Origin: a virus
Direction: 5' to 3' (one strand)
Length of the DNA: 64,000 nt
IMG/VR virus record: IMGVR_UViG_3300010397_000041
Span: 1-64,000 of that record
Below the pieces are notes generated by a model. The model did not search any database. It saw only the letters and a program-made list of their open reading frames with translations, and was not told where the DNA came from. A program made the position numbers and the translations under genes. Below are positions 7,451-26,120 of the stretch, in pieces (the first letter of the stretch is position 1; each line of letters starts with the position of its first letter).

Positions 7451-7878
7451 GCGGTATCCGCCGCGAGCACCGGCTGGTGCTCGCGATGCCCTGCCCAGTC
7501 GTCGACCTCCATGCCGAACTAGGCCACCTCGCCGACGGCATGCAGCTCGTCAATGTCGCGCTCGCCGCCGAAGACGACAAGCCGATCATCATCGATGACC
7601 TCACCACTGTCGTGCTGGTCGTCAAGTCGGGCACGCAGCGTGAGACGGCCGGCGAAACCGACGAGGAGCCGGTACCGGCGAGTACCGGCACCGCCGCCCC
7701 GGTACCGGCCGGTACCGGCGAGTACCGGCCCCGGACCGAGCTGGGCCGGCTCGCGCTCGAAGCCGAAAAGGCACATGCCGAGGGCATCGTCACCACCGGG
7801 GAGGAACTCCGCCAGCACCTCAACATCAGCAAGGAAGCAGCAGTCGTCTTCTGGCGTCACCTGGGCAAACCCGCGTGA
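7447..7878 (+). CDS. Hypothetical protein with C-terminal HTH-like segment, 143 aa
   Basis: ATG overlapping the previous stop. Three parts: a beta-rich N-terminal 65 residues (PIIIDDLTTVVLVVKSGT), a repetitive Pro/Val/Thr/Gly linker coded by repeated GGTACCGGC units, and a C-terminal helical domain (GIVTTGEELRQHLNISKEAA) that looks like a winged-helix or HTH DNA-reading unit. It sits immediately before the translocase gene and could be its DNA-binding adaptor. Function is not established. Confidence 0.6.
   Translation: MSGIRREHRLVLAMPCPVVDLHAELGHLADGMQLVNVALAAEDDKPIIIDDLTTVVLVVKSGTQRETAGETDEEPVPASTGTAAPVPAGTGEYRPRTELGRLALEAEKAHAEGIVTTGEELRQHLNISKEAAVVFWRHLGKPA
7668..7729 (+). repeat. GGTACCGGC direct repeats inside gene
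   Basis: A 22-base unit (GCCGGTACCGGC followed by GAGTACCGGC) occurs perfectly at 7668-7689 and 7708-7729, with a further GGTACCGGC between them. Each contains the palindrome GCCGGTACCGGC. The repeats code for a low-complexity linker. They may be only that, or they may double as a recognition site for the adjacent translocase. Confidence 0.6.
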
Positions 7879-10052
7879 GCGGGGCCGGCCCCAAGGAAGC
7901 GGCCGGCCAGGACGAGGCGAGTACCAGCCCGGTACTCGCCTCCGCCGACGTTGCACGGATCGTCGACGGCGAGGTCAGCCACCGGTCCGATCCGCGGCGT
8001 TGGCACTGGGCCGACCGGATCATCGTCATCGGCCGTCTCCGGCCCCGCGACCCCGACGACGCCAGCCCGGTACCCGGAATACGCCTCGCTCTCGTCACGC
8101 TCCGTGTCGTCTGGCGGGTCGGCCACGGTCATCGGGTCATCGCCGGCCGGGCGTGGGACGCCGCCACGCACGCCGCGATCCGCGAGCAGATCCGCTCCGC
8201 GCGGGCCGCTGGCGACCACGAGCGTCTCGGCGTGTGGATCGACCGGCACGGCGAGGCCAAGGCCGCCCGCCGGCAGCGGATCCGCGAACTCCCGGCCGTC
8301 GCCGGCGCGCTGACCGTCGGCGCGACCGCCGCCACAGCCGCGGCTGGGACCGCGGTCGGTGTCGGCGGCCTGGTCGTCGCGGCGCTGCACCCGGCCGGCT
8401 GGGGCTGGGACGACTGGTGGCACTTCTGGCACGCCGTCGTCAGCGCCGGCGCGACAGCAGTCGTGATTGTTCTCCGCGTCCTGCCCTGGGCGATCGTCCC
8501 AACCTGGGCGGCTGTCTTCTGGACGATCGGCCGCCTTGACGGACCCGTGCCCGGGTGGGCAATGGCCCCCGCCGAACTGGAGGAAGCACACAGCATGGTC
8601 ACCGCAGCCGGCCTCGCCGAGGCCCTCGCCCATCTCAGTATCCCCCCGCTGAACAAAGCGATCAAAGACGGCTGGCGGGTAGAGTTCTCCGTCCCGCCGG
8701 TCCGCGTCGGTAACCGCGGCTACCAGGTCGTGTTCTCCGTGCCGTTGGGTGTGACACCGGAAATGCTCGCCGACAAAAAGCCGGTACTGGCGCGGAATTT
8801 GTATCGGCATCCCACCGAAGTCTGGCCCGCCGCATCGGCACCCGGCTGGGTTGACCTTTGGGTGGCCGACCTGGGCGCCTCACAGCGGCCCGCCCCCGAA
8901 TACCCGCTGCTCCACGAAGGCACCGCGGATGTCTTCGAGGGCGTACCGGTCGGCGTCACCCAGCGCGGAGACCCGCTGCTGTTCCCGCTGGTCGGGGCGA
9001 ACTACTCCGCCGGCGGCCGAATGGGCCAGGGCAAGAGCAACCTGTGCCGGGTCATCATGCTCGGCGCCGCCCTCGACCCGCTCGCCCGCCTGCGGGTGCA
9101 TGTGTTCGCGGGCAACGGCGACTTCGACGCCTACGAGCCGCGCCTCGAGCTGTACAACCACGGCACCGACGAGACGGTCACCCGCGCCGGACTGGCCGAC
9201 CTGGAATGGCTGTACGAGGAGACCGGGCGACGCGAGGCCCGGCTCGCCGAGATCGGCGCGAAGAAAGTCACCCGCGGCGTTGCCGAGAAGTACCCGGATT
9301 TGGCACCGATCGTCGCGCTGTTTTCGGAATGCCATGAGCTGTTCGGCTGCACGAAGCCGCTTGACCCGGACGGGCCGAAGTCCGAGACGATCGGTAAGCG
9401 CGCCGGCGAGGTCGCGGTCAACACGCTGCGTCGCGCCCGCAAGACCGGGGTCGTCCTCGGCTTCGACACCCAGCAGGCCCGCGCCGACGCCATCCCCCCG
9501 AAAATCATCGGCCTTGTAGGGATCAACGCCTGCTTCTCCGTGAAGTCCTGGCGCGACAATGACGGTTTCCTGGGCGACGGCTCCTTCGCCGCCGGGATTC
9601 GGGCCACCGAGCTGCGGTTCAACATCGACCGGGGGACCTGCCTGGTCACCGGCGCTACAGCCGAGGTCTTCGAGATCGTGAAGACGCATTTCGTCGAGGT
9701 CGACGACGACTCCGGCTGGGACGCGGCCACCGAGGTCATCGAACGGGCGATGGCCGCGCTGAGCCCCGCTGTCGCCGCGACGCTCGGCGTGCCGATACCG
9801 GAGGCCGGCACTCGGGACCTGCTCGCGGACCTCGACGAGGCGCTGGGGACGGACGTGATCGCGAGCGCGGACGTGCCGGCGCTGCTGCGCGCGCTGGCAC
9901 CGGACTGGCCGGCGTACCGGTCGCTGTCCGGTGTGCAGCTGCGCGCGGACCTCGCCGACCTCGGCGTGAAGGTGCCCAGCACGGGGAACCGGTGGCCGCT
10001 GGACCCGGCTGTCGTCCGAGCGGCGCTCGCGCGGCGCGACGCGACCGAGTGA
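7875..10052 (+). CDS. FtsK/SpoIIIE-type DNA translocase (Tra-like)
   Basis: GTG start in a GTGA overlap; 725 aa. After a soluble N-terminal 140 residues come hydrophobic segments (about residues 145-180 and 190-220), then a region ending in a RecA-like motor. Walker A is GGRMGQGKSN near residue 385 and Walker B is IVALFSECHELF near residue 485. The C-terminal 70 residues (LRALAPDWPAYRSLSGVQLR) form a winged-helix-like DNA reader. Family knowledge: TraB/TraSA proteins of actinobacterial conjugative elements are single FtsK-like pumps that move double-stranded DNA between cells. Here it is the last gene of a long plus-strand operon. Transfer, segregation or packaging support are all possible. 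Confidence 0.85.
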   Translation: MSGAGPKEAAGQDEASTSPVLASADVARIVDGEVSHRSDPRRWHWADRIIVIGRLRPRDPDDASPVPGIRLALVTLRVVWRVGHGHRVIAGRAWDAATHAAIREQIRSARAAGDHERLGVWIDRHGEAKAARRQRIRELPAVAGALTVGATAATAAAGTAVGVGGLVVAALHPAGWGWDDWWHFWHAVVSAGATAVVIVLRVLPWAIVPTWAAVFWTIGRLDGPVPGWAMAPAELEEAHSMVTAAGLAEALAHLSIPPLNKAIKDGWRVEFSVPPVRVGNRGYQVVFSVPLGVTPEMLADKKPVLARNLYRHPTEVWPAASAPGWVDLWVADLGASQRPAPEYPLLHEGTADVFEGVPVGVTQRGDPLLFPLVGANYSAGGRMGQGKSNLCRVIMLGAALDPLARLRVHVFAGNGDFDAYEPRLELYNHGTDETVTRAGLADLEWLYEETGRREARLAEIGAKKVTRGVAEKYPDLAPIVALFSECHELFGCTKPLDPDGPKSETIGKRAGEVAVNTLRRARKTGVVLGFDTQQARADAIPPKIIGLVGINACFSVKSWRDNDGFLGDGSFAAGIRATELRFNIDRGTCLVTGATAEVFEIVKTHFVEVDDDSGWDAATEVIERAMAALSPAVAATLGVPIPEAGTRDLLADLDEALGTDVIASADVPALLRALAPDWPAYRSLSGVQLRADLADLGVKVPSTGNRWPLDPAVVRAALARRDATE

Positions 10053-10211: not shown

Positions 10212-10772
10212 CTATCGCGACGCATCCCAGACAGCCCGGTTGATCACATAGACGTTGTTGTCTCGCCATGGTCCGACGGTGGCGACCTCGCGGAAGGTCA
10301 TCCCGAGTGTGCGCGCTACGCCGTTCATCCCGGAGTTGGCCTGGTCGGTGACGGTGACCATCTCGTCGAGGCCGAGCGACTCGAATCCGAAGGCGAGCGC
10401 GGCCCGGACGACCTCGGTGCCGAGGCCCTGGCCCCAACGGTCCCGGCGGATCGAGACCGCGACTTCGACGCCGGGCCAGCCTTCGGCGTAGTAGGTGCCG
10501 CCGCGGCCGAGGAACTCGCCGGTCTGACGGTCCTCCAGTGCCCACATTCCGTGCCCCAGGATCGCCCACATGCCCGCGAGGTTCATGACCAGCCGTTCGG
10601 TGGCCGCGCGGTCGAACGTGCCGTTGAGATAGCGCATCGTCTCGGGGTCAGCGTTCATGGCCGCGTAGGGGTCGATGTCGCCGGCGCGCCACGCCCGCAG
10701 GATCAGCCGGTCGGTGATGACGGTAGGCACGGTGATGGTCGACGCCGTGCCGAAAGTCAGGCCACCGGTCAT
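10212..10772 (-). CDS. GNAT-family N-acetyltransferase (RimJ/RimL-like)
   Basis: 186 aa. Pattern of the GNAT fold: N-terminal strand TDRLILRAWRAGDIDPYAAM, then acetyl-CoA loop region RRDRWGQGLGTEVVRAAL (the R/Q-x-x-G-x-G/A signature), then the C-terminal GMNGVARTLGMTFREV segment typical of RimJ/RimL-type enzymes. It should acetylate an amine on a small molecule or protein N-terminus; the substrate is unknown. Its ATG overlaps the stop of the upstream XRE/TPR regulator gene (ATGA), so the two are co-transcribed. Confidence 0.8.
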   Translation of the reverse strand: MTGGLTFGTASTITVPTVITDRLILRAWRAGDIDPYAAMNADPETMRYLNGTFDRAATERLVMNLAGMWAILGHGMWALEDRQTGEFLGRGGTYYAEGWPGVEVAVSIRRDRWGQGLGTEVVRAALAFGFESLGLDEMVTVTDQANSGMNGVARTLGMTFREVATVGPWRDNNVYVINRAVWDASR

Positions 10773-12007
10773 GAGGCGGCTGCTGGGAGGGCGAGCCGCG
10801 GGCGGGCATCGAGCCGTTCCCGATAGTCACGGACCGGTCCGAAGTCGCTGAACGCGCGGAACGCGACATCCACGTCTCTGATCTTCGTCGTCACGGACGC
10901 TGTGGGCTGGACGTCCAGCATGTCTACGACACGACCGGCGAGGGCGGCTGCCTCCTCGGGCTCCGGGTCATCGCGTGCCAGCAGCGCCGCCGAGAGTCCC
11001 AGCAGCGCGTGCCCGTGCTCCTCGAAGCCGACTGCCGTACCACTGTCGTACGCGCGGATAGCGGCACGTGCGAGTGGTTCAGCCTCTCGGCCCGCGCCGA
11101 TCCGCGCGAGGACTCCAGCGGCGAACATGTCAGCGCTCGCCGCTGAGAACGGCGATGCGCCGGGCCGTGCAGGGCGATCCACGACCGCGCCGTTCATCCG
11201 ATCGAGCGCGGCCCTGGCACCGGTCGCATCGCCCATGGCAGCAAGTGCGCGTGCTTCGTAGGCGGCGAGCCGGGCGCGGGTGTAGTCGTTGTCTGCGACG
11301 GCCGCGCCCCGACGGGCCTCGTCGGCGGCGTCTTGGTAGGCGTGCCCGTAGAAGGCCAGGGTGGACATCATCTCGGCGACCGACGCTGTCAGGACGGGGT
11401 CGTCGACCTGCTCGGCATGGTCTCCAGCGAGTGTGAGGAACTGACGCGACGTCGGGGTGGCGCCGAGGTTGAACGACAGGCGGCACATCATGTACGCGGA
11501 GTAGCCCGCGATCTTCTCCAGCCGGGTCTGGGTCTTCGCCAGGACCTTCCCGCCGTCCAGGTGCCGTTTGGCTGACCGCCAGGTCTCGTACACCTCTTCC
11601 GCCATCACCGTGTGGGGTGTCGTCGTGAAGGCAGCGGCGTGCCGGTTCACGGCGTCAGTGAGTTCCCAGAGCGTCAACGCGTCCGGGCCGCTTCCCGCGC
11701 GGTCGCGTCGATCTCGGTAAGTCTTGGCGGCGAGTAGACCAGCCGCCCCGAACTCGAACAGCTCACGCCTGTCCGTGGGACTCACCTCCCCGACGACCGC
11801 TCGCCGCAGCTCGGCGAGCTCGCCATCAGTTCCATGATAATGATCTAGCTTGCTGATCAGTTCCGGCGAGGGAACGGGCTCAGTCGGAGACTCGGCTCGG
11901 CTGATGCCCGTCCGATCGTGCTGGATGCGCCGCGCCAGCGCCTCCTGACTCAGGTTTCCCCTCAGCTCACGAATCCGCCTGGCAAGTGTCGCGCGTGGTG
12001 AGTCCAT
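10769..12007 (-). CDS. XRE-family regulator with TPR-like sensor domain
   Basis: 412 aa from the ATG at 12007, which has GGGGGAG upstream; a longer in-frame start at 12073 is less likely. Residues 3-60 are an XRE helix-turn-helix (RRIRELRGNLSQEALARRIQ, then HDRTGISRAE). The remaining 340 residues are repeated helical hairpins of TPR type (for example SSKRHLDGG-like and AAYEARALAAMGDATGARAA). Family knowledge: such proteins in actinomycetes control neighbouring secondary-metabolite or cargo genes, often in response to peptide ligands. It is divergent from the TPR/radical SAM/methyltransferase genes and probably controls them. Confidence 0.8.
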   Translation of the reverse strand: MDSPRATLARRIRELRGNLSQEALARRIQHDRTGISRAESPTEPVPSPELISKLDHYHGTDGELAELRRAVVGEVSPTDRRELFEFGAAGLLAAKTYRDRRDRAGSGPDALTLWELTDAVNRHAAAFTTTPHTVMAEEVYETWRSAKRHLDGGKVLAKTQTRLEKIAGYSAYMMCRLSFNLGATPTSRQFLTLAGDHAEQVDDPVLTASVAEMMSTLAFYGHAYQDAADEARRGAAVADNDYTRARLAAYEARALAAMGDATGARAALDRMNGAVVDRPARPGASPFSAASADMFAAGVLARIGAGREAEPLARAAIRAYDSGTAVGFEEHGHALLGLSAALLARDDPEPEEAAALAGRVVDMLDVQPTASVTTKIRDVDVAFRAFSDFGPVRDYRERLDARPRLALPAAAS

Positions 12008-12344
12008 TCCACTCCCCCGGTCATTGTGCGCGGCGTGAACAACACACCACAGCACAACACAACACGGCTGCACGTCTCGTCACCGCCTCACCACTGCGTG
12101 AAGGTGTCCATGCCGGCAATGGCGCCGGCGGGAGCACGGAGAGCCAGGCAGGCGCCGATCCATGACATGCCGACGCGGCCGTGCAAGCAAGGCACCGAAC
12201 TAATCTCCCGGCCGGTACTCCGGCTGCGGGCGGTGCCAACCGGGTCGAGCGGCGGAAGCCGCCCCAACCCCTTCACAGGCACCGCGTTCGCCCGGGTGAT
12301 GACCCAACCTCGGGCGGACGCGGAACCACCGCGCAGGAGGCATC
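12008..12344. promoter_or_regulatory. Divergent regulatory region, 337 bases
   Basis: No gene is visible. Close to the regulator start (about 12035-12068) the plus strand is a run of AACAACACACCAC / CACAACACAACAC, that is repeated TGTGTTGT on the other strand, lower in GC than its surroundings. It is a reasonable operator for the XRE protein. The plus-strand gene has a near-perfect AGGAGG at 12333-12341. No sigma-70 hexamers are convincing. Confidence 0.45.
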
Positions 12345-13310
12345 GTGAACACCTCGCACCCCGCCGGCCCGGTGGCCGCTGCGGCCGTCGCCGCCCGCCT
12401 CGACAGTGCCGACACTCTCGACGCGCTCCGCCTCGAGCTGACGGCTCTCGCCGACGGATGGGAGACGACCTCGCCCGCCGTCGCCGCGCGTACGCTCTAC
12501 GACCTGGAGGCGCGGGCCCATGTCCTGTCCGCTGGGGTACGTAACGCGGACGCCGCCGCTGCCTGGGCGCATCTGCGCTGCCAGGTGTACGTCATGGAGT
12601 CGCAGTCGCTGATCGACCTTGGCCGGCCGCGGGACGCCTACCAATCGGCTGATGCCGCGCTGAAGCTCGCCGCCGCTTTGCACGACCCGGCGACTCAGGC
12701 GCATGCCGAGACGCTCGCCGCGACTGTCGCCCGGCAGGCCCACGCCCCCGCCAACCCGGCCCGTCTACTCACCGCGGCCTGTGACCGGGCTGGCGGCTCC
12801 TACGGTTCGGCGATCGCCCGCACCTGGCGTGCCGTCATCGTCGCGCGCAGCGGCGCTGTGGCCGGCCGGCAGCTCATGGACGCCGTGACCAGCGCCGAGG
12901 CCGCCGACCTCGGCACCGGCCGGACGGGGTTTGCGCTCGGCGGCTGGGATCCGGTCTGCCGGGACGCTCAGCTCGGCGCGGCGCTGGCAGCCACCGGCCT
13001 GCGCGGCCCGGCGCGTGAGCGGCTCGACCGGGCCGCCGCTGCCACCGGGCCCGGCGCCGACGGGACACTTGTGGCGCCGCGCCTGCACGCCCTAGTGCTG
13101 ATCTACCGGGCCCAGTCCGCAGCCGCCGCCGGCGACCTCGACGAGGCCCGACAGCTCGTCGGCCAGGCGTTCGCCGCCGCGGCCGGCCTCCCCTCGGCGC
13201 AGCTCGCTGCCGGCGCCCTGCGCATCGCGGTTCGAGCCGAAGCGCGCGGCGAGGACTGGAGCGACATCCGCGCCACCACGGACGGCATCGGGCTCGCTCT
13301 GTCCGCTTGA
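12345..13310 (+). CDS. TPR-like helical repeat protein
   Basis: GTG at 12345 after AGGAGGCATC; 321 aa. Composed of helical hairpins rich in Ala, for example YQSADAALKLAAALHDPATQ and AGDLDEARQLVGQAFAAAAG, the pattern of a TPR solenoid. It lacks the HTH of the divergent regulator but resembles its C-terminal part, so it may be a protein-interaction or sensor subunit. First gene of the plus-strand radical SAM cluster. The exact role is unknown. Confidence 0.7.
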   Translation: MNTSHPAGPVAAAAVAARLDSADTLDALRLELTALADGWETTSPAVAARTLYDLEARAHVLSAGVRNADAAAAWAHLRCQVYVMESQSLIDLGRPRDAYQSADAALKLAAALHDPATQAHAETLAATVARQAHAPANPARLLTAACDRAGGSYGSAIARTWRAVIVARSGAVAGRQLMDAVTSAEAADLGTGRTGFALGGWDPVCRDAQLGAALAATGLRGPARERLDRAAAATGPGADGTLVAPRLHALVLIYRAQSAAAAGDLDEARQLVGQAFAAAAGLPSAQLAAGALRIAVRAEARGEDWSDIRATTDGIGLALSA

Positions 13311-13443: not shown

Positions 13444-13482
13444 ATGACGCCGCCAGGCCGCCCCAAAGGATTCGCCACATGA
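13444..13482 (+). CDS. 12-codon leader ORF coupled to radical SAM gene
   Basis: ATG at 13444 encodes MTPPGRPKGFAT and its TGA overlaps the radical SAM start (ATGA). It may be a translational-coupling leader. It is too short and plain to be proposed as the modified substrate. Confidence 0.3.
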   Translation: MTPPGRPKGFAT

Positions 13483-14483
13483 CCCTGATCGACGACCGGC
13501 CGTCCACGCTGCACCGCATGCAGCTGGAGCTCACCGGACGCTGCCCGCTCAGCTGCTCGCACTGTTTCACCTCGTCTGGACCGACCGTGTCACACGGCAC
13601 GATGACGACCGGAGACTGGCTGGCCGTCGTCGAGCAGGCCGCCGGCGTCGGCGCGAGGGCGGTGCAGCTCATCGGCGGCGAGCCGACGACCAGCCCCGCT
13701 TTCGTGCCGGTGCTCGAGCGTGCGTTGGATCTCGGCTTGGAGGTGGAGGTGTTCTCGAACCTCCATTTCCCCGCCCGGCTGTGGGAGTTGCTGGCCCGGC
13801 CGGGGGTGACGCTCGCAACCTCCTACTACGACGTCAACCCGGCAGTTCACGACCAGGTCACCAACCGACCTGGCAGCCACGCCCGCACCCGGTCGCGGAT
13901 CGTCGAGGCGCTCGCCCTGCAGGTCCCGATCCGGGTCGCGGTCATCGAGGTCGTCGACGGGCAGGACGTCGAGGCAACCCGGGCAGAGCTGGTCGCCCTC
14001 GGCATCCCCGAGACGCTGATCCAGGTCGACCGGATGCGCGGGATCGGCCGCGGCGCCGGCGGTGCGGCCTTCAACCCGGCCGAGCTGTGCGGATCCTGCG
14101 GCCATGGCCGGGCGGCCGTGCTGCCCGACGGGACGCTCGCGCCGTGCACGATGGGCCGGGCCCTGGCCGCCGGCAACGTCCGCACCGCCCCGCTCGACGA
14201 GCTGCTCGCCGGCGAGCTGTGGGCAGAGGCGCTGGCGCTGGTACCGCCAAAGCTGGCGACTCAGTGCTCGCCGAAGACCGACGGCTCGGACTGCGGGCCG
14301 CGAGAGCAGACCTGCACACCGGGAACGGAATGCCAGCCCGGAACGAGTTCCTGCGGGCCATCGAAGAACTTTGCTCTGCTCCCCGTTCACGCGGTGACAG
14401 GCTGCACGCCGCACGACGGGTCGGACTGCGACCCGTCCGGACAGACGGCCTGCGCGCCCGACTTCGACGACGCCGGCGCATGA
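13479..14483 (+). CDS. Radical SAM/SPASM-type protein with Cys-rich repeat tail
   Basis: 334 aa. CPLSCSHC gives the cluster-binding cysteines C22, C26 and C29 of the radical SAM CxxxCxxC motif. IGGEPTT (residues 65-71) matches the SAM-contacting GGE motif. A SPASM-like auxiliary-cluster region follows: C204, C207, then LPDGTLAPC (C223), GNVRTAPLDE and C263. The tail after residue 263 is unusual. CSPKTDGSDCGPREQTC (263-279) is repeated as CTPHDGSDCDPSGQTAC (309-325), with four more residues of the Cys-x-x-Gly/Pro type between them. Family knowledge: such enzymes modify ribosomal peptides. No separate precursor gene is visible, so the tail itself, or a distant peptide, may be the substrate. The stop overlaps the methyltransferase start. 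Confidence 0.8.
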   Translation: MTLIDDRPSTLHRMQLELTGRCPLSCSHCFTSSGPTVSHGTMTTGDWLAVVEQAAGVGARAVQLIGGEPTTSPAFVPVLERALDLGLEVEVFSNLHFPARLWELLARPGVTLATSYYDVNPAVHDQVTNRPGSHARTRSRIVEALALQVPIRVAVIEVVDGQDVEATRAELVALGIPETLIQVDRMRGIGRGAGGAAFNPAELCGSCGHGRAAVLPDGTLAPCTMGRALAAGNVRTAPLDELLAGELWAEALALVPPKLATQCSPKTDGSDCGPREQTCTPGTECQPGTSSCGPSKNFALLPVHAVTGCTPHDGSDCDPSGQTACAPDFDDAGA

Positions 14484-15634
14484 TGGCCGACGACGAGCCG
14501 TGGCGGCCGGACGCTCGCGGCCTGGCCGATACGGTGACCCATCCCGGGTCACGCTGGTGGCCGGTGGTCGCCGCAGTCCCCCGGCATGTGTTCGTCCCGG
14601 CCTGGTGGGTGTGGGGCGACGACGGCTGGTTCCTTCGGTACGGCCCGACCGGCGCCTACCAGAACCGGTCGCTGGTAACCCGTGTCGGCAAGGCCCACGC
14701 AGACTTCGCAGGCAAGGCGGACCGGCCGACGGGCGATCCGACGTCGTCGTCGACGGAGCCGGGGCTGCTGCTGACGATGTACCGCCACGCCCAGCTAGCC
14801 ACCGGGCTCGACATCCTCGATGTCGGCACCGGGTCCGGCTACGGGGCGGCGCTGCTCGCGACCCGGTACGGCGATGAGCGGGTCACGACGGTCGACGTCG
14901 ACCCTTACCTAGTCGAGGCGGCGGCCGGTCGGCTTGCCGACGTCGGACTGACGCCCGAGGTGGGGATTGTCGACGCGACCGGCCCGCTTCCCGGCAGCTT
15001 CGATCGGATCGTGGCGACCGTGTCGGTCCGGTCGATCCCCCCGTCGTGGCTGGACGCGCTGAGGCCCGGCGGCCGGCTCGTCACGACGATAAGCGGAACG
15101 TGGATGATCCTCACCGTCGCGAAGCAGGCGAACGGTGAGATCCGCGGCCAGGTCGCCCGCGACTGGGCCGGTTTCATGCCCACCAGGCACGGCGACAACT
15201 ACCCGCCGGCCGGCGTCGACGTCGACGACCTTCTGAAACGGGAGGGCGAGCAGGTCAGCGCCGGCTGCTACCCGGTCCTCGACATCGCCGACGCCTGGGA
15301 GCTGTCGACGATGCTCGCGATCGCCGCCGGCGTCGACATCGAGCACCGTTACATCCCGCCCGGCCCCGACGGCACGCACACGGCGCTACTGGCCCACCCG
15401 GACGGCTCCTGGGCCCGGGCTACCGCCATCGGCACAGCACAGCCACAGGTCCACCAGGGCGGCCCGCGCCGCCTGTGGGACGTCCTCGATCAGGTTCGGG
15501 ACGACTGGCTGCGCATGGGTATGGCACCGTGGATCGGCGCTAACGCCCTGGTGAGGCCGGACGGCGCCGTGGTCCTCGCGCGGGGCAGCTGGCGGGCAAC
15601 GATCCCCGCCGCCCCGAGACAGGCAAGAACTTAG
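14480..15634 (+). CDS. Protein-L-isoaspartate-type O-methyltransferase
   Basis: 384 aa from the ATG overlapping the radical SAM stop; a second ATG follows at 14483. Motif SSSTEPGLLLTMYRHA (PCMT-type substrate loop) precedes SAM motif I, LDILDVGTGSGYG, with D114. Motif LRPGGRLVTTISG also fits. The 150-residue C-terminal extension beyond the catalytic domain resembles that of methyltransferases encoded beside lanthipeptide/FxLD-type modified-peptide clusters (recognition from memory, not searched). The likely role is carboxyl methylation of Asp/isoAsp in a peptide also handled by the radical SAM enzyme. Confidence 0.8.
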   Translation: MMADDEPWRPDARGLADTVTHPGSRWWPVVAAVPRHVFVPAWWVWGDDGWFLRYGPTGAYQNRSLVTRVGKAHADFAGKADRPTGDPTSSSTEPGLLLTMYRHAQLATGLDILDVGTGSGYGAALLATRYGDERVTTVDVDPYLVEAAAGRLADVGLTPEVGIVDATGPLPGSFDRIVATVSVRSIPPSWLDALRPGGRLVTTISGTWMILTVAKQANGEIRGQVARDWAGFMPTRHGDNYPPAGVDVDDLLKREGEQVSAGCYPVLDIADAWELSTMLAIAAGVDIEHRYIPPGPDGTHTALLAHPDGSWARATAIGTAQPQVHQGGPRRLWDVLDQVRDDWLRMGMAPWIGANALVRPDGAVVLARGSWRATIPAAPRQART

Positions 15635-17995: not shown

Positions 17996-18040
17996 GCCGG
18001 CCGCCCTGGGTGGGCGGCCGGCGCTGGCCCTGTTAGGGCC
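17996..18040 (-). terminator. Two adjacent hairpins between minus-strand genes
   Basis: GCCGGCCGCCC (17996-18006) pairs perfectly with GGGCGGCCGGC (18012-18022) around a 5-base loop. Next to it GGCCCT-gtt-AGGGCC (18026-18040) spans the stop codon of the upstream gene. Without T-runs they may act as attenuators or RNA stabilisers. Confidence 0.55.
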
Positions 18041-18314
18041 GGTCGGAATCGGTCGAGCGGAGCCGTTCCACCTCGGCGGCGGCGCCGGTCAGGCGCCGGG
18101 CGAGCGATGCTGCCCGAGTCTTGCCTGCGCGGCGCTGGGAGAACATCCCGATCAGCATGCGAGCCATGTCGCGTGCCTCATCGGGTGTCAGCCAGGCCAC
18201 GCGGGTCGGCAGGCCCTCTCCGTCGATGTAGGTGACTCGCACCATCCAGCGTCCGTCGTCCCAGGGGTCGACGCTGCGGGCTGCTGCGATCTCGACGCGA
18301 TCCGAATCGAACAT
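18033..18314 (-). CDS. Hypothetical protein, 93 aa
   Basis: ATG with strong site GAGAGGAG. N-terminal beta-rich half (GRWMVRVTYIDGEGLPTRVA) and C-terminal helices (PDEARDMARMLIGMFSQRRA). It shares its mirrored promoter and leader with the divergent gene at 18558. The motif of a short sheet followed by 'DEARDMA' resembles the partner's 'DVALDIAESLLG', so the two may be distant paralogues. Function unknown. Confidence 0.55.
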   Translation of the reverse strand: MFDSDRVEIAAARSVDPWDDGRWMVRVTYIDGEGLPTRVAWLTPDEARDMARMLIGMFSQRRAGKTRAASLARRLTGAAAEVERLRSTDSDRP

Positions 18315-23729: not shown

Positions 23730-25007
23730 TCAGGCGGCGGCCCGGTGGTAGCCGCGGGCTGACGCCCAGACCCGCAGAGCGCGGGCGACTGCGGCGGACT
23801 CGCCGAAATGGGTTTCGTGGGCCCACGTGTGGACGTGCTGCCACAGCACCGCATCGGCGTCATTCGCCGGCGGCGGGGTCGGAGTCGGCACCGGCGCCGG
23901 CGGGGGCACAGGGGCGGGCGTCGGCGACGGTGTGGGTGCGGGGGTGCCGGTCAGCGCAGCGGCCAGCGCGGTGCCGATGACCACGCCCATCCCGGACGAC
24001 TCGTCGTAGCCGGTGGACGGCGGGTAGACGTCGCCTGCGCCGCCGGACGTGATGTCGGTGCAGACGGGGTGGCCGTAGAGCACCGATGCGAAGACGGCGA
24101 ACTGGTCCGGGGTGACGCCCAGCTCGGCGAGCAGGGCGATCAGGCCGGCATATACCGGCGCGATCCCGGACGTGCCGCCCGCGACGGCCGGCTGCCCGTC
24201 AGCGACGATCTCAAAGCCCGTCACAGGGTCGGCGTTACCGGCCACGTCCGGTACGGCCCGCATGGTGAGCCCGAGCGCGGCCTGCCACGGCGGGGCCGGA
24301 AACACGCTCGACACGCCGCCGCCGGTGGCCGACGACGCGCCGTCATCCCAGACCGTCTCCGACAGCCGGCCACCGGCCGAGTCGAGGATGAGCCGGGTAC
24401 CGCCGCAGGCGATCACATGCGGGCTGGAGCAGGGGAAATCGGCGACCGGGCCGCTGGTGCCGTCGTTCATGCCCGCGTCGCCGGCCGCGCAGCACACGAG
24501 GATCCCCGCCGCCAGGGCGCGGGCGAACACGGCGTCGAACCGCTGCATCCTCGCCGGCGGCCACGACGAACCAGGACCGCCCCACGAGCACGACACGACG
24601 CAGGCACCGGAGGCGAGCGCGGCCTCGAACGCGGCGAGGAACCCGTCGTCGGTGTTGTCGGCGAAGATCAGCTCGATGTCGGCGCCGGGCGCGACCGCGG
24701 CGACGGCCTCGACGTCCAGCATGACCTCGACGTTGGCGCCACCCGGGTCCGGCGTGATCGTCGCACCGTTGACCCTGGTGACCGTCACCGACGGCGGGGT
24801 GATCCCGGTCTGGGCGCAGAACTGCTCGAAGTCGGCGGACGAGAACGCTCCACCGAGCTCGACGATCGCGACCTTCTGACCGGCGCCCGTCAGCGCGCGC
24901 CCATCCGCCCTCGTGGTCGGGAACTGGTAGGCGCGGGCGGCCTGGGCGAACGTGAGCGGTGAACCGCCCGCCGCGAGAGGGCGGACCAGATACGGCGTTG
25001 CGATCAT
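23730..25007 (-). CDS. Sedolisin-type serine-carboxyl peptidase (S53)
   Basis: 425 aa. The sedolisin catalytic set is visible: E94 and D98 in NVEVMLD (spacing of four as in the family), D177 in AAGDAG (oxyanion Asp) and nucleophile S280 in GGTSGIAP. The C-terminal calcium loop pattern is present too (DITSGGAGDVYPPSTGYDES). There is no pro-domain and no signal peptide, unlike free-living sedolisins. A Pro/Thr linker (about 355-385) leads to a small helical tail (LWQHVHTWAHETHFGESAAV). Placed between the GH25 lysozyme and the holin, so it may help lysis or be carried on the virion tail. The activity is predicted from residues only. Confidence 0.85.
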   Translation of the reverse strand: MIATPYLVRPLAAGGSPLTFAQAARAYQFPTTRADGRALTGAGQKVAIVELGGAFSSADFEQFCAQTGITPPSVTVTRVNGATITPDPGGANVEVMLDVEAVAAVAPGADIELIFADNTDDGFLAAFEAALASGACVVSCSWGGPGSSWPPARMQRFDAVFARALAAGILVCCAAGDAGMNDGTSGPVADFPCSSPHVIACGGTRLILDSAGGRLSETVWDDGASSATGGGVSSVFPAPPWQAALGLTMRAVPDVAGNADPVTGFEIVADGQPAVAGGTSGIAPVYAGLIALLAELGVTPDQFAVFASVLYGHPVCTDITSGGAGDVYPPSTGYDESSGMGVVIGTALAAALTGTPAPTPSPTPAPVPPPAPVPTPTPPPANDADAVLWQHVHTWAHETHFGESAAVARALRVWASARGYHRAAA

Positions 25008-25064: not shown

Positions 25065-26120
25065 CTAGGTAGCTGGCTTGGCGACGAGGGTGAGTCCGGC
25101 GAGCGCGGCCGACAGCCCGTCCAACCGGGCCAGTACCGGTGTCAGGTTGGCGCCGCCTGCCGTCGACACAGGTAGCGCCTTCACCTCGGCGACGAGCGTC
25201 GCCAGCTGCTGGCCGAGGGTGTTCAGCGCGGTGAGAACCCCACCCGCGGGCGTCAGCTGGCCGGCGACCTGTCCGAGTCCGGCGGAGATCGCATCGGACC
25301 TGGCGGCCAGCGACGGATCTCCGGGATTCCAGCCGAGCGCGGCGACGAGCGCTTCCACCGCGTTGAACAAGGTCTGCTCGAGCGCGAGGATCGCCCTCTC
25401 GGTGGCCGCCCACGCGGTCTGACCGGCGCCGGTCCCTTCGTTGAGAACCCCGCGGAAGATGGCGGCGATCTGTTGGGATGTCGGGTCGTCGAGCACGAGT
25501 TCTCCCAAGGCGAGCCATTCGGTGACGATCCGGGAGGCGTCACAGACCGCCGGTACGCCTGGGATCCGCGCGGTGTCGGTGTACTGCCTGGCGGCGACCT
25601 GTGTGCGTGTCCAGCCGGGCGGCAGCGGCATCACCGCGTCCGGCACGGGGCCGTAGTTGGCGATGTGCAGCCGCCGCCATCCGGGAGGCAGCATCGCCGC
25701 GGTCAGACCGGCATCAGCCAGGTAGGAGCTGTAGCTGTAGATCAGGCCGGAGCTGTAGCCGTGCTGCACCATCCGGCCGCAGAAGTCGACCGCGTGCTGC
25801 GCGGCTGAGCCTGTCCCGGCTCCGTCTTCGGTGTCCAGGACCACCCAGTCACGGCGCGGGTCGGCGCCGCCAGCCGCCTCGACGACCGAAACGAAATGGT
25901 CCGCTTCGGTGGCGCCGGCCGACAGGGAGGGCCGGGCGTAGTGATAGGCGCCCCGGTGCAGGCCGAGCGATCGTGCCTGCCGCCACCAGCCGGGAAACTC
26001 GGGGTCGGGCCAGGTGGCGCCGTCGGTCGCAAGGATCCATAGCCGGTCGGCGCCGGACGCGGTGTAGGCGCTGAGATCGATGCCGGCCTGATAGTTCGAG
26101 ATGTCGGCGAATGCGGCCAC
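25065..26120 (-). CDS. GH25-type lysozyme (endolysin)
   Basis: 351 aa from GTG after CGAGGAG. Residues 1-200 follow the GH25 muramidase pattern: FADISNYQ (D6), LHRGAYHYARP, then WVVLDTED (D96, E98), and a final beta strand region. The C-terminal 150 residues are helical and Ala/Leu-rich (ALEQTLFNAVEALVAALGWN; LTALNTLGQQLATLVAEVKA) and probably multimerise or dock the enzyme. It cleaves the glycan strands of peptidoglycan, for host lysis or entry. Confidence 0.8.
   Translation of the reverse strand: MAAFADISNYQAGIDLSAYTASGADRLWILATDGATWPDPEFPGWWRQARSLGLHRGAYHYARPSLSAGATEADHFVSVVEAAGGADPRRDWVVLDTEDGAGTGSAAQHAVDFCGRMVQHGYSSGLIYSYSSYLADAGLTAAMLPPGWRRLHIANYGPVPDAVMPLPPGWTRTQVAARQYTDTARIPGVPAVCDASRIVTEWLALGELVLDDPTSQQIAAIFRGVLNEGTGAGQTAWAATERAILALEQTLFNAVEALVAALGWNPGDPSLAARSDAISAGLGQVAGQLTPAGGVLTALNTLGQQLATLVAEVKALPVSTAGGANLTPVLARLDGLSAALAGLTLVAKPAT

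Follow-up and report, generated by a model that had tools for sequence, protein, structure and literature searches.

A radical SAM protein with a Cys-X-Pro tail that may be its own substrate, and its actinobacterial relatives with interchangeable partner enzymes

Which substrate is served by a radical SAM (rSAM) enzyme that is encoded next to a PAMT-type methyltransferase, with no precursor peptide gene nearby? Lee et al. described in 2023 a set of 249 such two-gene rSAM+PAMT clusters for which no precursor or substrate was found (PMC10787088). The window analysed here, a stretch of 64,000 nucleotides within a virus record of 92,425 bases (IMG/VR record IMGVR_UViG_3300010397_000041, positions 1 to 64,000), carries a pair that probably belongs to this orphan kind, since it has the same make-up of two genes, one of them a PAMT-type enzyme, without a nearby precursor. 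The original prediction had proposed that the Cys-rich tail of the rSAM protein may itself be the substrate. Our analysis supports this proposal and adds to it that the type of tail matches the partner enzyme and holds a residue suited to the chemistry of that partner.

The rSAM/SPASM protein (334 residues; positions 13479 to 14480, plus strand, with the stop codon reaching 14483) consists of a folded body and a C-terminal tail. The body (residues 1-258; 13479 to 14252, plus strand) combines an rSAM core with a shortened SPASM region. Radical_SAM was matched over residues 17-157 above the gathering score of Pfam (1e-11), with the CxxxCxxC of an rSAM barrel at Cys 22/26/29, and SPASM (PF13186) was matched over residues 204-263 (5.5e-5; 23.8 bits against a cutoff of 21.5). 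The full set of seven SPASM cysteines is absent, the body having only Cys 204/207/223 and the tail cysteines showing no positional conservation. In the AlphaFold2 model, pLDDT mostly exceeds 90 over residues 10-258 and stays under 50 over residues 266-334. The best solved match of the body is SkfB (profile, 5e-24; Foldseek, 2e-13), followed by SuiB, EpeE and CteB, all of them RiPP maturases. SkfB aligned with the body only from its residue 112, and no N-terminal RRE domain is present in the window protein, whose rSAM core begins by residue 14. RRE leader-binding domains are common, though not universal, in rSAM/SPASM RiPP maturases. A tethered substrate would make such a domain unnecessary, a reading consistent with the lack of N-terminal room for one.

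The tail (residues 263-334; 14265 to 14480, plus strand) is a putative fused core peptide. The original observation held: the reading frame is real, the tail has eight cysteines (263, 272, 279, 285, 292, 309, 317 and 325), and a tail of this kind proved to be a trait of the family. Two units of 17 residues lie exactly where they had been placed: unit 1 (residues 263-279; 14265 to 14315, plus strand), CSPKTDGSDCGPREQTC, with Asp268 of a D-G step as the candidate residue, and unit 2 (residues 309-325; 14403 to 14453, plus strand), CTPHDGSDCDPSGQTAC, with Asp313, again of a D-G step. They have in common C-x-P, DGSDC-x-P and a closing Cys, and are one residue out of register, the first Cys being five residues from the Asp in one and four in the other, such that an ungapped comparison matches at 3 of 17 positions. 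The exact repeat between them is the 5-mer DGSDC; when the tail was shuffled 2000 times, such a repeat was reached in 9 cases. We regard the recurrence of this motif in the sequences of independent homologues as more decisive than the shuffle test. Duplicated tail units were likewise seen in the homologues L037, L058 and L095.

The partner, a PCMT-type (PAMT-like) O-methyltransferase of 384 residues (14480 to 15634, plus strand), is encoded directly downstream, the start of its gene overlapping the stop codon of the rSAM gene (ATGA). Its nearest named family is TIGR04188, that of the graspetide methyltransferases (PMC8939145), which matched residues 22-351 (E=1.1e-66); with 225.7 bits, the match falls below the curated cutoff of 380. 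A PCMT core was recognised by Pfam at residues 93-225 (4.5e-15). The enzyme thus has the architecture of RiPP-type PAMTs, a PCMT fold with a C-terminal extension in a chain of more than 300 residues, as the TIGR04188 match reaches beyond the PCMT core. Unlike the graspetide systems, the pair has no ATP-grasp ligase gene among its annotated or clustered neighbours. We searched all six frames for a separate precursor, defined by three clustered Cys-X-Pro, and found none in the window, elsewhere on the 92-kb record or at the homologous loci collected up to that point, in agreement with the original prediction that none is visible near the pair. The search returned rSAM tails, broken copies of tails and chance frames rich in Arg, Pro and Ala, and nothing else. 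No recurring family of proteases or exporters was seen among the clustered neighbours of the homologues.

The record contains portal, Mu F, tail-tube, minor-tail and lysin genes, which makes the pair cargo carried by a phage or phage-plasmid; a DNA search of the phage collection gave no match to a close relative. Elsewhere in the family, a copy on a 126-kb plasmid of Streptomyces anulatus (L010) has a phage portal gene at a distance of about 1 kb, and a copy with a 2OG partner (L014) sits beside an integrase in a prophage of Mycobacterium abscessus. A role in anti-phage defence was considered and rejected, there being only a weak likeness of the rSAM core to prokaryotic viperins and of the PCMT core to mad2. 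Upstream of the pair, the window encodes two divergent NsdA-like TPR regulators (10769 to 13310), one with and one without an HTH, and a 725-residue protein (7875 to 10052, plus strand) with a weak similarity, below the cutoff, to FtsK/SpoIIIE; its presence together with phage structural genes is reminiscent of phage-plasmids or integrative elements. Downstream are a tRNA-Asn (gtt) gene (17999 to 18086, plus strand), possibly an attachment site or a phage tRNA, and a subtilase-family protease gene (23730 to 25007, minus strand) that adjoins the GH25 lysin gene (25065 to 26120).

Homologues were collected from GTDB genomes, plasmids and phages. They come from Actinobacteria and amount to 178 rSAM genes, about 170 of them intact; tail statistics were taken on 170, broken, run-on or short ones being left out. 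The tails are 19-90 residues long with 0-12 cysteines, and 169 of the 170 hold at least one Cys-X-Pro. This arrangement accounts for 778 of 803 tail cysteines (97%), against 9 of 1172 body cysteines (0.8%), at a tail Pro frequency of 0.173. The proposal had called for core-like hypervariability, and this stood for the architecture of the tail, that is for the number of Cys, their spacing and the length, but not for its sequence: pooled over close pairs, dN/dS is 0.22 in the tail and 0.25 in the body, with no sign of diversifying selection, and a core hypervariable in the short term is not supported. Tail codons under purifying selection like that of the body indicate that the tail is a functional coding part of the gene.

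Three apparently tail-less copies proved not to be counter-examples. In L065 and L066, a frameshift has moved the tail, still complete, to another frame, and the prophage copy L014 has a clear Cys-X-Pro tail, GPNCNPQCTPQTICAPTHCVPVRGHCGPNEP, past its annotated end (L014:2800-2956) and after one in-frame TGA, which may be a nonsense mutation, a site of readthrough or the boundary of a separate peptide. In L193, the rSAM protein, a Cys-X-Pro tail and a PCMT_B-type methyltransferase form one open frame up to the end of the contig, as either a natural fusion or the product of a lost stop. One class of Streptomyces copies lacks a second enzyme and hardly varies in its tail, CTPPQFLPxCGPCGPCVPSVxHCDP; at L147, L148, L149 and similar Streptomyces loci, the nearly invariant tail reads CTPPQFLPMCGPCGPCVPSVGHCDPREA, again without a modifying partner, and at L147 and L149 the rSAM gene is followed by a small protein of about 117 residues with a conserved CLPGEPQECG.

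The gene directly downstream differs among the 178 rSAM genes: PCMT_A in 69 (the window included), an APH1 kinase in 37, an AAA ATPase with an APH2 kinase in 22, PCMT_B in 16, a 2OG-Fe oxygenase in 5, APH2 alone in 3, mixed sets in 4 and no recognised partner in 22. APH1 (kinase-1) gave no match in the Pfam search; it retains the kinase residues K, E, DxxxxN and D, and its predicted fold is that of an aminoglycoside phosphotransferase (AlphaFold2 mean pLDDT 91; Foldseek 8e-8). Within the PCMT_A-linked members, whose bodies are about 50% identical, the motif D[GS].DC, from a set of motif classes that were partly defined after inspection of the data and whose counts are descriptive, occurs in 56 of 67 tails, against 1 of 103 other tails and a shuffled expectation of 0.8%. 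The sole exception, L169, is a decayed gene that has lost both CxxxCxxC and its partner, and of the 11 PCMT_A tails in which the exact motif is missing, most retain an Asp that precedes Ser or Gly. All 39 intact kinase-1 tails have a hydroxyl residue two positions ahead of their last Cys, Ser in 37 of them and Thr in 2. Kinases require a hydroxyl residue. PCMT-type enzymes, for their part, target an Asp that a small residue follows, the TxDGC core of lanthipeptides being an example (PMC10787088); D[GS].DC would offer such an Asp if the tail were the substrate. Judged by their sequences, the tails suit the chemistry of their partners, with an Asp and a small residue for the PCMT-type enzymes and a hydroxyl for the kinase.

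We analysed how tails and partners are distributed over a tree built from the bodies only. PCMT_A members do not form one group: the bodies of L051 and L077 are nested in PCMT_B (99/92), although they have a PCMT_A partner and a DGNDC or DGRDC tail resembling those of L042 and L050, and a single clade for the PCMT_A bodies was rejected with a p-AU of 0.017, an optimistic value since the rows were picked after the first tree. Independent tail-partner pairs number three on supported branches of a 96-row tree, where they are concordant nearly always, and two, mostly uninformative, in a 170-row tree; they are too few for partner swapping to count as strong statistical proof, and we rejected it as such. 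The tail, as the 3' end of its gene, adjoins the partner gene; a single crossover can therefore move both, and this physical adjacency means that linkage accounts for part of the matching. Their joint movement shows that they stay associated; it does not show modification of one by the other.

We consider it likely that the tail is a core peptide fused to its enzyme, on which the rSAM domain acts first, in cis, and the partner second. The rSAM domain would act on the Cys-X-Pro units of its own tail or of the tail of another copy, probably installing thioether rings, by analogy with SkfB, the nearest solved relative, which is a thioether-forming sactipeptide maturase. The methyltransferase would then esterify the Asp of the D-G or D-S step in D[GS].DC (Asp268 and Asp313 in the window protein), and the ester might go on to an aspartimide or isoaspartate, as happens when PAMTs act on peptides already cyclised; this order is proposed because most PAMTs require a cyclised or hairpin substrate (PMC11285071). 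Finally, the tail would be freed by a protease, or would function while attached. In the homologues, the same body carries different tails, paired in each case with a particular second enzyme: a kinase for tails with Ser/Thr-X-Cys, an AAA ATPase with a kinase, or a 2OG oxygenase. The lack of a conserved protease or exporter among the clustered neighbours, the similar dN/dS of tail and body, the Streptomyces copies with a nearly invariant tail and no partner, linkage and the small number of independent pairs count against this reading.

Several of these points bear on other explanations. The tail could instead be a metal- or cluster-binding extension of SPASM, with its cysteines holding extra Fe-S, zinc or a redox function and the methyltransferase acting elsewhere, as it is located where full SPASM domains bear further cluster Cys and the body retains only Cys 204/207/223; moreover, type II pamtide precursors are zinc ribbons, too, with an Asp at their centre (PMC10787088), and the partnerless, nearly invariant Streptomyces tails would be expected of such an extension. 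The original prediction had named conserved cluster ligands as what would overturn it, and the tail cysteines do not behave so: their number runs from 0 to 12, spacing and length vary, disorder is predicted and the motif classes track the partner. Ligands at fixed positions are thus disfavoured by the sequences, and we hold this explanation to be unlikely. The fit between tail and partner and their swapping together would also be explained if the tail were an arm for docking or regulation that brings in the partner, the substrate itself lying elsewhere; yet an arm leaves unexplained why PCMT tails hold D-G/S-x-D-C, why the kinase-1 position is only ever a Ser or Thr hydroxyl and why nearly all tail cysteines lie in Cys-X-Pro, and no common substrate gene was found near the loci searched, which makes it rather unlikely.

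Both remaining explanations seem to us less probable still. One body reused with different tailoring enzymes, and the absence of a precursor, agree with a tail that serves, in the manner of pearlins, as a carrier for the assembly and later release of a small molecule, but there is no peptide aminoacyl-tRNA ligase or releasing protease among the clustered neighbours, and PCMT and APH chemistry suit residues already in the tail; we think this very improbable. D-G steps of disordered chains isomerise readily, and the tail is predicted to be disordered, such that the PCMT might be a mere repair enzyme for an isoaspartate-prone tail without a biosynthetic role. The methyltransferase, however, is of the long RiPP-linked type and not a housekeeping PCMT, and the sister tails that go with a kinase, an oxygenase or an AAA ATPase would have to be explained in some other way, which leaves repair as the least probable of the explanations weighed.

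A self-modified tail would set the family beside known systems without placing it in any of them. In the borosins (OphMA), the enzyme carries at its C-terminus the core peptide that it modifies (PMC11285071), an architecture like that of the window protein with its putative core; borosin enzymes are alpha-N-methyltransferases, whereas here the enzyme is an rSAM protein that does not qualify as one, and a second enzyme is co-encoded. Imiditides and pamtides (PMC10787088, PMC13001092) likewise combine a PCMT-type enzyme with a conserved Asp beside Gly or Ser in a Pro/Gly/Asp-rich or Cys-rich peptide. Their precursors are separate genes, whereas here the peptide is part of the rSAM enzyme, and no tail-like ORF occurs outside the rSAM gene at the loci searched. 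SkfB, SuiB, CteB and other SPASM RiPP maturases share the rSAM core and SPASM fold with the window protein; SkfB, SuiB and CteB act on a separate precursor whereas the window protein is putatively its own substrate, and SkfB has about 90 extra N-terminal residues, the window protein retaining only three SPASM Cys. The family thus resembles the borosins in logic, and is neither a borosin, its chemistry being different, nor a pamtide as defined, since there is no separate precursor. In the open-access papers that our search covered, we found no report of an rSAM enzyme with a fused core or of a self-modifying rSAM precursor, and the text available from Lee et al. (PMC10787088) mentions neither the tail as a substrate nor sister systems with a kinase, an oxygenase or an AAA protein.

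The family is real and widespread, and the simplest reading makes it an rSAM system that is its own substrate and whose partners are interchangeable. With some reservation, we favour a broader view of these actinobacterial proteins as a self-modifying rSAM family in which the tail would be a swappable substrate cassette matched to the second enzyme, both moving together between bodies: an rSAM counterpart of the borosins that would supply the substrate missing from the orphan rSAM+PAMT pairs. That substrate may lie inside the rSAM gene and so have been missed by searches for precursor ORFs, and genome mining would gain from inspecting the ends of modifying enzymes for core peptides. If this is true, enzyme and substrate could be had from one two-gene construct, making cyclisation and aspartimide chemistry accessible by co-expression, and the family would offer natural pairs of a tail and a second enzyme, whether methyltransferase, kinase or oxygenase, on one scaffold.
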